Positions 2,566 through 32,013 of a DNA stretch of 64,000 bases are shown piece by piece. The position numbers and the translations under genes are program-made. Numbering within the stretch: position 1 is the first letter of the stretch; the number at the start of each line of letters is the position of its first letter. Location: assembly GCA_009773455.1 (NCBI GenBank), contig WSXU01000006.1, forward strand, positions 62,001-126,000, given 5' to 3'. The notes below the pieces were generated by a model that saw only the letters and a list, made by a program, of their open reading frames with translations, had not been told where the DNA came from and did not search any database. The stretch comes from Bacteroidota bacterium (lineage in GTDB: Bacteria > Bacteroidota > Bacteroidia > Bacteroidales > Lentimicrobiaceae).

Positions 2566-4059
2566 ATGCTCAAGGAAGAAAATCCATTTGAATCTAAATC
2601 AGGATCTGTTAAACTTGGGTCTCCCATGTTTTACATACCCTTTTTTATTGTTTGCCTGGTTGCTGCCATGATCATTGTTAAAGGCGGGCTGGTTGCCGGG
2701 ATGGGTCTGATCGTTTTGCCGTTCCTGTTTTTTTATCTCAACCTTTTATTCCGGAAACCGGTTGTTGGTATATTCACGGTCGCTATTTTAGGATATTTAA
2801 TACTAGGTGTACTGCGCTATGCTGAGGTTCCAATGATAGGCACTTCTATCGATTCAATCCTTGTTTTAACTCTCCTTGCCTTGTTTTTTCAGAATTTTCA
2901 TAAGGGGATGGATTGGAGTCCGGCGAAAAAAGATGTTACCTTGCTTGCAGCTATTTGGCTTGGTTATGGCGTCCTGAGCGCAGCCAATCCCGAAATCAGA
3001 AATTATTCTGTCTGGCTTTCCAGTTTGCGCACTGTTTCAGCATATATGCTGTTTGTTATTGTAGTGACTTTACTTTTGATCAATACGAACAAACGATTCT
3101 ACACATTTCTGTATATATGGGGTATCTTCTCTATATTGGCAACATTGAAGGGCATGTACCAGGTTTTTTTCGGAGTTGACGCCTGGGAGAAAGCCTGGCT
3201 TGACAGTGGTGCCTATACCACGCACCTGATATTTGGCAAACTCCGTGTTTTCTCTTTTATGAGTGATGCTGGTCAGTTCGGAGCTAACCAGGCTTACACC
3301 GGAGTCGTATTTCTTATCCTTTCTGTGGGACAAAAAGATACATTCAAAAGAATATTTTTTCTTATTGTGGGACTCCTGGGCATTTATGGAATGTTTATTT
3401 CCGGAACCAGAGGAGCCATAAGTGTACCTCTTGCCGGGTTTGTACTCTATTTTATTCTCAAAAAGAATAAAGCTGTTATGATCTCTGGTTTTATCTTTCT
3501 TGCAGTTGTATTTGTATTTTTTAAATACACGACCATCGGTCAGGATAACCAGCAAATCAGGCGTATGCGCACTGCTTTCGACCCAAATGATGCTTCATTA
3601 CAGACCAGACTGGCCAATCAGAGAACCCTGTCAGTGTATCTTTCAACCAGACCATTCGGAGGTGGTCTGGGTCATGCCGGAAAAAAAGTAAAAAAAATAC
3701 TTCCTAATACGGTCCTGGCTAATATAGCGACCGATAGCTGGTATGTTATGATCTGGGCAGAACAGGGTGTGGTTGGCCTGGTCCTTCATCTGATCATTCT
3801 TTTCTATATCATTATCAAAGCGTCTTACCTGATAATGTACAGGATCAGGGATCCGATTCTTAAAAACAATATGTCAGCCCTGGCTGCCGGGATGCTTGGC
3901 ATTATGGTTGCTTCGTATGGAAATGCTGTATTGGGTCAGGTACCTACCAGTATCATGATTTATGTTTCTATGGCCCTTATGCTGGACCCGATGAGGTTTG
4001 AACCAGATGTTAAAATACCGGAACTTCCGGCTGTATTAACCGAAGCAGGAGGGAAGTGA
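2566..4059 (+). CDS. O-antigen ligase/polymerase-like membrane protein (Wzy/WaaL family)
   Basis: 497 residues with about 11-12 membrane spans. A long periplasmic loop (about residues 320-390) is followed by a segment resembling the Wzy_C signature (TDSWYVMIWAEQGVVGLVLH). Such proteins polymerise or ligate lipid-linked glycan units at the periplasmic face of the inner membrane. Conserved Arg residues (e.g. GTRGA near residue 285) fit the family. It starts 48 nt after the flippase stop on the same strand and ends 26 nt from the convergent GT8 gene. Polymerase and ligase cannot be separated by sequence inspection; the flippase context favours Wzy. Confidence 0.82.
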   Translation: MLKEENPFESKSGSVKLGSPMFYIPFFIVCLVAAMIIVKGGLVAGMGLIVLPFLFFYLNLLFRKPVVGIFTVAILGYLILGVLRYAEVPMIGTSIDSILVLTLLALFFQNFHKGMDWSPAKKDVTLLAAIWLGYGVLSAANPEIRNYSVWLSSLRTVSAYMLFVIVVTLLLINTNKRFYTFLYIWGIFSILATLKGMYQVFFGVDAWEKAWLDSGAYTTHLIFGKLRVFSFMSDAGQFGANQAYTGVVFLILSVGQKDTFKRIFFLIVGLLGIYGMFISGTRGAISVPLAGFVLYFILKKNKAVMISGFIFLAVVFVFFKYTTIGQDNQQIRRMRTAFDPNDASLQTRLANQRTLSVYLSTRPFGGGLGHAGKKVKKILPNTVLANIATDSWYVMIWAEQGVVGLVLHLIILFYIIIKASYLIMYRIRDPILKNNMSALAAGMLGIMVASYGNAVLGQVPTSIMIYVSMALMLDPMRFEPDVKIPELPAVLTEAGGK

Positions 4060-30632: not shown

Positions 30633-30968
30633 TTAACGGATAAAATGGGGAAGATTTTCAGGGATGACCATTGAAAGTTCAACCAGGCCTGCGAACTCTC
30701 CGTTTTCATACCATGGACACTGATAAATGAGTTTCTTCATGCCGTTTTTCTCAATGGTATAGGCATTGGTGGCTTTATCTTTTGTCAGATGGGCTATAGT
30801 CGCCTGTGAATTCGGATTGTGACAATCGTTCAGGGGCTGACCGATCAGTTCAATCCCGCCATATTTTGCGAAGACTTCAGCTGATTTATTGTTCATCTCT
30901 ACAATTTTCCCATCCTTACCTGTAACAGTAATGGCTATGGGCAGTTCCTGCGGCCAGTTTACTTTCAT
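30633..30968 (-). CDS. Small stand-alone PAS domain protein
   Basis: 111 residues from the ATG at 30968 (MKVNWPQELPIAITV). A PAS fold is suggested by AITVTGKDGKIVEMNNKSAEVF, LIGQPLNDCHNP, then the beta strands LIYQCPWYENGEFAGLVELS. The DCHNP tract resembles the Cys-His of DUF438-linked PAS domains (RNCHPP). A longer reading frame extends to 31262, but it would translate antisense through the tRNA gene and its terminator, so I reject that extension. It has no output domain, so it may bind a small ligand or partner. Confidence 0.8.
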   Translation of the reverse strand: MKVNWPQELPIAITVTGKDGKIVEMNNKSAEVFAKYGGIELIGQPLNDCHNPNSQATIAHLTKDKATNAYTIEKNGMKKLIYQCPWYENGEFAGLVELSMVIPENLPHFIR

Positions 30969-31015
30969 CCTGTAGTTTTTTTTTTGATTTGGATGCTTCA
31001 AAAGTACCTGAAAAA

Positions 31016-31045
31016 TTTGAAAATCCGGAAAATTGTGTATCTTTG
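31016..31045 (+). promoter_or_regulatory. Bacteroidota promoter for tRNA-Arg
   Basis: TTTG at 31016-31019 and TATCTTTG at 31038-31045 are separated by 18 bases, an exact match to the TTTG/TAnnTTTG layout. The tRNA begins 12 bases downstream of the -7 box. Confidence 0.82.
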
Positions 31046-31057
31046 CACCCTCGTAAT

Positions 31058-31134
31058 GGCCCCGTAGCTCAACTGAATAGAGTATCTGACTACGGATCAG
31101 AAGGTTACAGGTTTGAATCCTGTCGGGGTCACCA
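31058..31134 (+). tRNA. tRNA-Arg (anticodon ACG)
   Basis: A 77-nt cloverleaf. The acceptor stem GGCCCCG pairs with CGGGGTC (one G-T pair), the anticodon stem TCTGA/TCAGA encloses the loop CTACGGA with anticodon ACG, and the T arm is ACAGG-TTTGAAT-CCTGT. The 3' CCA is encoded. A Bacteroidota promoter precedes it and a terminator follows. The 3' part of this gene is repeated at 31417-31510. Confidence 0.95.
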
Positions 31135-31164
31135 AAAGGGGGATGTTTTTCATCCCCTTTTTTT
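31135..31164 (+). terminator. Intrinsic terminator directly after tRNA-Arg
   Basis: GGGGATG (31139-31145) pairs with CATCCCC (31151-31157) around a TTTTT loop and is followed by seven T residues. The tRNA 3' CCA ends at 31134, so the hairpin abuts the tRNA. The same hairpin recurs at 31512-31541. Confidence 0.88.
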
Positions 31165-31169
31165 GCATT

Positions 31170-31427
31170 ATGGCATATACGGTATATGTTATTCAGAGTG
31201 AGATTGATCATCGTCTCTATAAAGGGATGACTGAGCATATTCATATTCGATTGACTGAGCATAATTCAGGTAAATGTTTTTCAACAAGTCCTTATCGCCC
31301 ATGGAAGCTTGTTTACACGAGAGAATTTTCTAATTCTACTGAAGCCAGAAATTGGGAAAAATACCTGAAATCCGGGAGAGGTCGGGATATGCTGAAAAAT
31401 CTGTTAAAGGGAAATCAGAGTATCTGA
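31170..31427 (+). CDS. GIY-YIG nuclease domain protein (short, URI/UPF0213-like)
   Basis: 85 residues from the ATG at 31170. The GIY-YIG pattern is present with substitutions: VYV (residues 5-7) and YKG (17-19), Arg27, His31-Asn32, PWKLVY, and Glu58 in the AxxWEKxLK tract. It would cleave DNA with a metal ion. It starts only 6 bases after the tRNA terminator T-run. Its last residues and stop (about 31413-31427) lie inside a copied piece of the tRNA-Arg gene. I reject the earlier in-frame ATG at 31113, inside the tRNA. Whether it is expressed is unclear, as it has no obvious promoter of its own; it could depend on tRNA read-through. Confidence 0.75.
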   Translation: MAYTVYVIQSEIDHRLYKGMTEHIHIRLTEHNSGKCFSTSPYRPWKLVYTREFSNSTEARNWEKYLKSGRGRDMLKNLLKGNQSI

Positions 31428-31510
31428 CGACGGATCAGAAGCCCGCCTGCGGCGGGCAGGGTTACAGGTTTGAATCTCTGCCCGCGGCAGGCGGGCTGTC
31501 GGGGTCACCA
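31417..31510 (+). pseudogene. Broken copy of the tRNA-Arg 3' half, split by two 19-nt inverted inserts
   Basis: Bases 31417-31441 repeat the tRNA anticodon arm (31079-31103) with T to G at universally conserved position 33. Then comes a 19-nt GC-rich insert (31442-31460), the T-arm piece 31461-31476, a second 19-nt insert (31477-31495) that is the reverse complement of the first with two mismatches, and finally the tRNA 3' end with CCA (31496-31510). The 5' half is missing, so it cannot be a functional tRNA. Confidence 0.9.
31442..31495. repeat. Pair of inverted 19-nt GC-rich hairpin elements
   Basis: The first element (31442-31460) contains CCCGCC-TGC-GGCGGG, a 6-bp stem. The second (31477-31495) is nearly its reverse complement. 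Each can fold alone, and together they bracket 16 nt of tRNA-derived sequence. Their base composition is far from the surrounding DNA, so they look inserted. Confidence 0.85.
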
Positions 31511-31511
31511 A

Positions 31512-31541
31512 AAGGGGGATGTTTTTCATCCCCTTTTTTTT
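31512..31541 (+). terminator. Duplicated terminator after the broken tRNA copy
   Basis: This is the same GGGGATG/CATCCCC hairpin as at 31135-31164, with eight instead of seven T residues. It is part of a ~112-bp near-identical repeat (31120-31231 and 31496-31608). Confidence 0.8.
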
Positions 31542-31546
31542 GCATT

Positions 31547-31651
31547 ATGGCATATACGGTATATGTTATTCAGAGTGAGATTGATCATCGTCTCTATAAA
31601 GGGATGACGCAAAATATCGGTATTCGTTTGTATGAGCTTATTATTCATTGA
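31547..31651 (+). pseudogene. Truncated GIY-YIG nuclease gene copy
   Basis: The first ~20 codons are identical to the nuclease gene at 31170 (MAYTVYVIQSEIDHRLYKGM). The sequence then diverges (TQNIGIRLYELIIH) and stops after 34 codons. The DNA after the stop still resembles the intact gene with small insertions, so this looks like a decayed copy. It lacks the Glu needed for catalysis. Confidence 0.8.
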
Positions 31652-32013
31652 AACGTAAATGAATGAGATTGAAATCTTTCAGATTGTAGCTTTATTTATT
31701 TAAATCATGAGAATTTTCTCCGGACAACGATGATTTCTATTTGATTCTATTGCTATTGGTCGATGATATCGGTCAGATAAATCATTGTATGCAGAGTCGC
31801 TCAATCGTGAGCCAATCCAATGAATTCCAAAATAAAATATTGTTTCATAATTTATATTATGTCAAATATCAATTTTCTGCCCTTACCCTCTCCACATAAA
31901 TATGCTTAGACTAAGTTGCCTATTGATCAGGATATACAACCGGATAATGTGAATGTAAATGAAAAAAAAGGCTGCCTTGTATGGCAGCCTTAAAGTAAGA
32001 ATATAATTATCGT
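31652..32013. other. 362-base AT-rich spacer with a terminator
   Basis: It holds the tail of the decaying nuclease copy, then AT-rich sequence with no reading frame or RNA that I recognise, and at its right end the terminator of the reverse TPR gene. Confidence 0.5.
31962..31991 (-). terminator. Intrinsic terminator of the TPR gene
   Basis: AAGGCTGCC (31968-31976) pairs with GGCAGCCTT (31983-31991) around a 6-nt loop. On the reverse strand it is followed by an eight-T run (31969-31962), 23 bases after the stop at 32014. Confidence 0.88.

Follow-up and report, generated by a model that had tools for sequence, protein, structure and literature searches.

A GIY-YIG nuclease unit at a tRNA-Arg gene and its likely kinship to a proposed family of very small mobile units in bacterial tRNA genes

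The window analyzed here is a 64-kb stretch of DNA from a 159-contig draft genome, and it contains a single tRNA recognized by ARAGORN, an intact tRNA-Arg(ACG) on the forward strand at positions 31058 to 31134 (62 bits against the Rfam tRNA model). All features described below lie on the same strand. The tRNA is followed by a terminator hairpin at 31135 to 31165 (folded as 31135 to 31166, with a z score of -4.35 and -15.5 kcal/mol), which by eye resembles the terminator at the nuclease-free sites L063 and L078 described below. Next comes an open reading frame of 85 amino acids at 31170 to 31427 that comprises only the catalytic domain of a GIY-YIG nuclease (Pfam PF01541, E value of 5.4e-12, 46.3 bits with a cutoff of 22.6). 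Its TGA stop codon at 31425 to 31427 falls inside a second, broken copy of tRNA-Arg that starts at 31417, and its last codons are tRNA derived. Repeat comparison delimits two pieces of this broken copy, one carrying tRNA positions 22 to 46 with one mismatch (31417 to 31441) and the other positions 46 to 62 (31460 to 31476), and an acceptor end can be read from the sequence at 31496 to 31509. Two GC hairpins interrupt the copy, at 31442 to 31459 and at 31478 to 31495. The second is a near reverse complement of the first, and the two pair with each other through 27-nt arms (85% complementary, fold z score of -6.99). A second copy of the terminator hairpin (31510 to 31543) and a truncated second GIY-YIG copy (31547 to 31651), near-identical to the first until 31608 and diverged after, complete the locus. 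The initial annotation had described this order from the tRNA to the truncated nuclease gene, with the nuclease frame ending inside the second tRNA copy, and the ARAGORN, open reading frame, and repeat analyses bear it out; the two GC hairpins were absent from that description.

A 112-nt segment at 31120 to 31231 recurs at 31496 to 31608 with one extra T, a difference already noticed in the initial annotation and recovered both by reading the sequence and by alignment from 31134. The length and identity of this repeat exclude chance. The difference between unit spacings of 338 and 377 bp is due to the two GC hairpins in the second tRNA piece. Past the end of the repeat, the aligned GIY-YIG frames diverge abruptly, so the second stub continues as a different allele. 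This second copy is probably an older allele, the first part of which was duplicated or converted. We propose that a unit was duplicated or reinserted at tRNA-Arg(ACG) and that the downstream GIY-YIG copy is decaying.

At 81 to 85 residues, the nuclease consists entirely of catalytic domain, and an 81-residue structural model has a pLDDT of 94.7. In an alignment of 20 sequences, Y17, R27, and E63 are invariant and Y6 and H31 are nearly so; we presume that these conserved Y, R, E, and H residues have the catalytic roles assigned in I-TevI. By domain, residues, and modelled fold, the window protein belongs to the GIY-YIG nucleases. The closest solved chains by sequence are UPF0213 proteins (1zg2, E value of 2e-15) and SLX1, and the window nuclease shares sequence family and fold with both. 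A fold search gave the best E value to UPF0213 BH0048 (TM of 0.59) and TM values of 0.63 to 0.72 to SLX1, while those to I-TevI, at 0.47 to 0.62, were lower than for SLX1 and not significant. No separate DNA-recognition domain of the I-TevI type is present in the 81 modelled residues. The window protein belongs to no NCBIfam family and matches no PHROG. Three relatives (L097, L104, and L003) score 20 to 23 bits against the NCBIfam group I intron endonuclease model, under its cutoff of 56, and L003 also matches a homing-endonuclease PHROG (E value of 4.4e-5). dS was estimable in 7 of 17 gene pairs, the other 10 being without an estimate, and dN/dS in those 7, one of which (L105/L106) is not tRNA linked, ranges from 0.05 to 0.17, showing that the nuclease is under purifying selection.

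Three familiar kinds of element were considered and rejected. Integrative elements with a tyrosine integrase target a tRNA gene and restore it by a carried piece. Our units resemble them in target and restoration, but they measure only about 300 to 450 bp, and the 377-bp unit of the window holds no integrase-size open reading frame. A group I intron does not fit a locus in which the upstream tRNA is intact, and no Rfam intron family was matched within 30900 to 31800 at E values up to 1. As for a phage or plasmid origin, searches of 50,697 phage records, of plasmids, and, by pattern scan, of viral contigs gave no match to the window protein, while the protein type found at tRNA-Met has only three weak matches, namely two Listeria phage records and one Azospirillum replicon.

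The same arrangement recurs within the genome of the window. The Pfam GIY-YIG model identifies nine places above its cutoff in these 4.8 Mb, two of them in long frames of 605 and 458 codons that presumably encode a UvrC-like protein and another GIY-YIG protein. At another two (L051 and L052), the flanking DNA examined contains no tRNA. Four of the remaining five have an intact tRNA close by: the window itself; L003, which adjoins tRNA-Pro(TGG) and where a displaced 3' fragment of tRNA-Pro, hairpins, and a terminator of another sequence can be made out by eye; L005/L058 at tRNA-Pro(GGG), which is cut by a contig end; and L056, which adjoins tRNA-Val(TAC) and has a displaced piece including hairpins together with the same terminator (by eye). 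The fifth, L004, has no intact tRNA and appears by eye to lie between tRNA-like remnants and terminators.

To follow the unit beyond this genome, we assembled 113 related loci, picked by protein similarity. A scan with the window protein, using one genome per species, gave 23 loci in Bacteroidota, Chloroflexota, candidate phyla, and others. The closest relative with a name, L091 of the Lentimicrobiaceae, shares 59% identity, and from it we take the window's phylum to be Bacteroidota. A 20-protein profile gave matches in 250 of the 392 genomes of the window's phylum at an E value of 1e-10 or less, and 90 loci were taken from this search: the 30 first returned and 60 from down the score list, chosen regardless of tRNAs, with some places near the list end skipped, the tail left out, and the window as one of the 90. 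An intact same-strand tRNA lies within 300 bp in 99 of the 113 loci (16/23 and 83/90). Within 100 bp of the nuclease gene there are 91 same-strand tRNAs versus 0 on the opposite strand, and same-strand tRNA density in the 90-locus set declines from 435 per 100 kb at 0 to 100 bp to 2.5 at 1000 to 1500 bp. Depending on the locus, the tRNA is upstream or downstream of the nuclease gene. The initial annotation had read the window as a small-nuclease element with a tRNA target and one decayed copy and had suggested looking for it at other tRNA genes; we found the arrangement at tRNAs for 13 different amino acids and also at tmRNA. At L160, a GIY-YIG unit directly follows the tmRNA gene (1136 to 1500) and is itself followed by a broken 3' fragment of tmRNA that contains an insert (by eye), and at L267 a tmRNA lies 163 bp from the GIY-YIG gene on the same strand. 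Old, independent copies without tRNA-derived junctions, named at the outset as the outcome that would speak against such an element, did not appear among the relatives. The initial reading of the tRNA 3' end as the target needs widening to the whole tRNA gene, of which either the 3' or the 5' part may be duplicated.

Linkage to tRNA genes weakens among lower-scoring relatives. A census of three single-contig genomes at an E value of 1e-5 or less found a same-strand tRNA or tmRNA within 300 bp of 15 of 33 GIY-YIG clusters, comprising 11 of the 14 clusters above 75 bits and 4 of the 19 below. The weaker-scoring relatives are mostly not tRNA linked and are thus probably other GIY-YIG families. 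One of the three high-scoring misses (L265) has tRNA-Leu-like 5' pieces with a hairpin (by eye).

Duplication of part of the host gene beyond the nuclease gene, which is also found in the fungal mobile open reading frames (mORFs) discussed below, is the rule among the 99 tRNA-linked loci. At least 12 nt of the locus's own tRNA lies beyond the nuclease gene in 82 of the 99, versus 11, 14, and 14 for tRNAs of other isotypes, 5 for a region further out, and 0 for shuffled tRNAs. A hairpin of at least 5 bp sits between two collinear tRNA pieces in 69 of 99 loci; the corresponding controls gave 7, 16, and 8 (other isotypes), 3 (further out), and 2 (shuffled). The window's own copy does not count among these 69, since the search began only past the last GIY-YIG stub. 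Random insertion of the hairpins is incompatible with 69 loci versus 7 to 16, even though similar palindromes are dispersed in the genome.

The position of the hairpin recurs within isotypes. Most Arg loci have it in the D-loop at 21-22, and two of them (L094 and L095) have a further hairpin in the T-arm, whereas those of the window are at tRNA positions 46 and 62. Met loci carry it at 37-38/47-48 when the tRNA is upstream and at 21/32 in two loci with the tRNA downstream. Asn loci have it at 57/60 (several) or 23-25/33-35, and at 20-21 in two with the tRNA downstream. Three Cys loci share position 38/56, and most Ala loci with the tRNA upstream, as well as the listed Val, Gly, and Gln loci and one Pro locus, have it near 25-29. 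By eye, broken tRNA copies with hairpins also occur without a nuclease gene at L112, L113, L155, and L178, some in tandem; they are near an intact tRNA or a nuclease gene and are possible nonautonomous derivatives. A genome-wide pattern for the Met-type hairpin copy, which proved too narrow, gave 7 matches in 6 of 296 genomes.

We consider it likely that the window module belongs to a family of tiny mobile, or selfish, units that occupy tRNA genes. Such a unit would comprise part of the tRNA gene, often with its terminator, the catalytic-domain-only GIY-YIG gene, and a further tRNA fragment that is broken and bears a hairpin. On insertion into a tRNA gene, the carried part would complete the gene on one side and so preserve a functional tRNA for the cell, and the displaced fragment would remain beyond the nuclease gene. 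Movement could proceed through a DNA break made by the nuclease and repair by homologous recombination via the tRNA pieces, which would copy the unit, and the hairpin may protect or mark the broken copy.

A precedent in kind exists in fungal mitochondria. The mORFs of Allomyces (atp6) and Glomus (atp6, atp9, cox2, and nad3) are described as an endonuclease gene joined to a copied host-gene end, which completes the gene and leaves the native end further downstream; the gene of a close relative is free of the mORF, and endonuclease activity is reported to have been shown biochemically (PMC3630166). They lie in mitochondrial protein genes and encode LAGLIDADG enzymes in three Glomus cases and a GIY-YIG enzyme in atp9. 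The anatomy of our units fits the same course of insertion, with the gene completed by the carried piece and the resident piece displaced, and element-free alleles exist here as well. Unlike the mORFs, our units occupy bacterial tRNA and tmRNA genes, encode a single 80-residue domain with predicted nuclease activity, carry a hairpin in the displaced piece, and occur in 5' and 3' versions. The initial annotation was right that no integrase is present; its conclusion that a known integrative element does not explain the module overlooks the nuclease-driven mORFs and phage SegB.

Several observations weigh against mobility. No movement was observed, and the protein has no separate DNA-binding domain and a fold closer to SLX1 than to I-TevI. 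Only the 15 of 33 census clusters noted above are at a tRNA or tmRNA, and the search of phages, plasmids, and viral contigs provided no vehicle for the window protein. The hairpins of the window are not in the D-loop typical of Arg, and its near-identical terminators are also expected from plain tandem duplication.

We evaluated whether the nuclease follows the tRNA or the host using a tree of 99 nuclease domains (77 columns), in which many forks are without resolution. The tRNA amino acid requires 25 changes on this tree, compared with a shuffled mean of 69.5, and the host family, for the 88 rows with a family, requires 46, compared with 61.6; none of 200 shuffles was as low in either case. 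Both are thus clustered, isotype much more so. The Met clade spans several host families, and the window nuclease branches beside Arg-associated ones in a fork without resolution. Because host family is also clustered, isotype tracking may partly reflect vertical inheritance at one locus. One Ala clade, in which two loci from the window's phylum group with four from Chloroflexota, requires either transfer or very old inheritance.

Single-contig genomes also contain tandem arrays of these units (L155, L159, and L191), with five units 315 bp apart at tRNA-Asp in L191 and five units 450 bp apart at tRNA-Leu in L155. The presence of the same units in such genomes makes an assembly artefact unlikely, and the two GIY-YIG copies of the window differ in sequence; although the window comes from a draft, we give this explanation next to no weight. 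Arrays could form by repeated events or by unequal exchange. tRNA genes are prone to recombination, and arrays and near-identical copies can arise by plain tandem duplication, in which unequal recombination at a tRNA gene carries the nuclease gene as a passenger and nothing is mobile. This does not explain why GIY-YIG genes accompany the tRNAs for 13 amino acids as well as tmRNA, always on the tRNA strand within 100 bp, nor does it explain the hairpins or the isotype-following clades, and we regard it as improbable. The arrays fit nuclease-promoted tandem amplification, as for SegB of phages T4 and T6, a free-standing GIY-YIG homing endonuclease in tRNA clusters that is reported to go with tandem amplification of tRNA and a truncated nuclease gene and to show no isotype preference (PMC13096335). 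SegB and our units are alike in having a GIY-YIG gene beside tRNA genes and tandem copies of tRNA and truncated nuclease gene. SegB is phage-borne, whereas our units are chromosomal, follow isotype, and include a tRNA piece and a hairpin. At L162 (1810 to 3122, reverse strand), nine consecutive tRNA matches lie beside GIY-YIG copies, those named by ARAGORN being tRNA-Asp, and it looks as if the tRNA itself had been amplified. The region at 1536 to 4020 of L271 (G285) has seven GIY-YIG matches with the palindrome CTCCGAAGCTTCGGAG and a terminator, and no recognized tRNA.

Sites with and without the module, a comparison already suggested in the initial annotation, are found in two genera. In two congeners of the window genome (L063 and L078), tRNA-Arg(ACG) and a similar terminator adjoin the same TPR gene, and the nuclease is absent. 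L062, from a third congener, offers a partial case: its tRNA 3' end lies at a contig end, and the stretch from there to the TPR gene contains no nuclease. The remaining 14 of the 17 congener loci show no tRNA at this site, leaving only three usable comparisons for the window locus. A clearer case is a tRNA-Met site in another genus, where the neighboring gene (START-like by eye) is present in 61 of 61 genomes searched. Thirty of these loci were fetched, and all have the tRNA, with the nuclease in one (G229, a five-unit array) and not found in 29, two of which (L230 and L232) extend only about 220 to 240 bp past the tRNA. The last broken copy of G229 is followed by the same downstream gene as the empty sites L205 and L211 (by eye). 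The intact tRNA-Met of this filled genome is identical to 12 empty ones, and these tRNAs are too conserved to trace the carried versus the native end. A resistance mutation protecting the intact tRNA from self-cutting is thus absent at the one site examined, and a nuclease that simply recognized the tRNA would still cut its own host. Within the same genus (L204 to L233), tRNA-Met exists in eight sequences at this one locus, differing mainly in the T-arm, which are possibly traces of past conversions. A tyrosine-integrase-like frame (by eye) follows tRNA-Met (2045 to 2119) in the congener L206 and is perhaps an ordinary island at the same target.

The patchiness of the unit bears on whether it serves the host. 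A host-useful system acting on RNA, in which the nuclease serves in tRNA cleavage or transcript processing and the hairpin-bearing broken tRNA is a decoy or a 3' end, would account for the same-strand placement, the isotype tracking, and the purifying selection. It is difficult to reconcile with presence at 1 of 30 loci in one genus and any match at all in 250 of 392 genomes, with decaying copies, and with the activity of GIY-YIG enzymes, which to our knowledge act on DNA. We therefore consider it very improbable.

If the units are mobile, as we favor, the nuclease could act in either of two ways. It may home, cutting the intact tRNA gene in a chromosome that lacks the element, at the position that the hairpin occupies in the broken copy, with repair from the donor copying the unit and the hairpin destroying the cut site in the donor's broken copy. 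Hairpin positions that recur per isotype and nuclease clades that largely follow isotype agree with homing, as does SegB, which is described as cutting tRNA-containing sequence and thereby causing tandem amplification (PMC13096335). The donor's own intact tRNA should be cut too, and its unchanged sequence at tRNA-Met means that a plain homing model must explain the escape of the host tRNA. The lack of a separate DNA-binding domain and the greater likeness to SLX1 than to I-TevI also count against homing, and we hold it to be plausible at somewhat less than even chances.

The hairpin stems raise the second possibility. Among sixteen distinct 16-nt hairpins from Met, Asn, and Asp units, the ends TCC...GGA are invariant, while the inner pairs vary yet remain paired. 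Pairing holds in 95 of 96 cells, compared with a shuffled mean of 79.2 and a maximum of 86 in 1000 shuffles; the count is ungapped, takes each sequence once and only hairpins of this length, and trims extra flanks. Since these sixteen were preselected as hairpins, pairing as such is partly built in, but the variety of the inner pairs speaks for a structure under selection. An SLX1-like nuclease might act on the broken copy, at the hairpin or cruciform extruded there, with specificity residing in the tRNA arms and not in the protein. Such a cut would free ends of tRNA sequence, which would limit recombination to tRNA genes of matching isotype. SLX1 itself acts on branched DNA together with SLX4, and we found no report in accessible parts of the open literature searched that links UPF0213 or SLX1 to tRNA genes. 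The paired stems, the SLX1-like fold, and the unaltered intact tRNA are all consistent with hairpin cutting. However, a cut in the donor copy alone does not drive spread, the hairpin could work at the RNA level, no hairpin was found in 30 of 99 loci, and the counted stems had been chosen as hairpins; we judge this version rather unlikely. The absence of a recognition domain, the SLX1-like fold, and the unchanged tRNA sequence lean toward hairpin cutting, while the isotype-specific hairpin positions and the SegB precedent lean toward homing.

Palindromes of the window type are also dispersed in the genome, as REP-like elements are: allowing up to two mismatches, we found 22 matches, two of them the window's own, versus 0 for a reversed-pattern control. 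REP and Rickettsia palindromic elements are likewise short, dispersed GC palindromes in or near RNA genes. Unlike these, the hairpin of our units goes with a GIY-YIG unit and with recurrent tRNA positions. None of the 17 dispersed palindrome loci scanned outside the window has a tRNA gene. Palindromes like CCTGCCTGCGGCAGGCAG occur at L034, L038 to L040, L045, L049, and others, often between short AT-rich repeats, and are perhaps a separate palindromic repeat family.

The open literature searched, in the parts accessible and mostly without subscription papers and without bioRxiv preprints, does not describe any chromosomal GIY-YIG units linked to tRNA genes in bacteria. A nuclease-driven element that forms a hybrid with its host gene is already known in kind. 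Its location in bacterial tRNA and tmRNA genes, the minimal size of the protein, the marking by a hairpin, and the existence of two-sided versions did not turn up in that literature, which is no proof of novelty. If the mobile-unit reading is right, common minimal units attack bacterial tRNA genes and hand back a working hybrid tRNA, which would extend the gene-hybrid strategy of the fungal mitochondrial mobile open reading frames to bacterial RNA genes. It would also explain the many small GIY-YIG genes beside tRNAs and the tRNA pseudo-pieces with hairpins, and perhaps local changes in tRNA copy number. Five near-identical units in single-contig genomes make the mechanism directly testable. 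The boldest version, which we rate a little more doubtful still than hairpin cutting as such, is that the hairpin is the cut site of a structure-cutting, SLX1-like GIY-YIG domain that lacks a recognition domain and is the unit's only protein, and that the carried tRNA arms alone pick the target by homology. One generic nuclease fold would in this way have colonized the tRNAs for 13 or more amino acids, tmRNA, and even genes for proteins, in the phylum of the window as well as in Chloroflexota and candidate phyla. The hairpin as cut site with tRNA arms as guide would, if true, be a new targeting principle.

Some related loci depart from the common arrangement. At L154 and L197, the GIY-YIG gene lies between two intact tRNAs of the same isotype (Phe and Ser, respectively). 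Related GIY-YIG genes are also located in or between protein genes with short inverted repeats flanking them (L105 and L106, both 3001 to 3255; L185, 1554 to 1785; L266, 1535 to 1807; by eye), and one at L104 (2312 to 2563) follows a broken gene start (by eye). The protein-gene hosts across these loci appear by eye to be dehydratase-like, leuC/leuD-like, and four-helix-bundle-like, with one unit after a uracil-DNA glycosylase-like gene.
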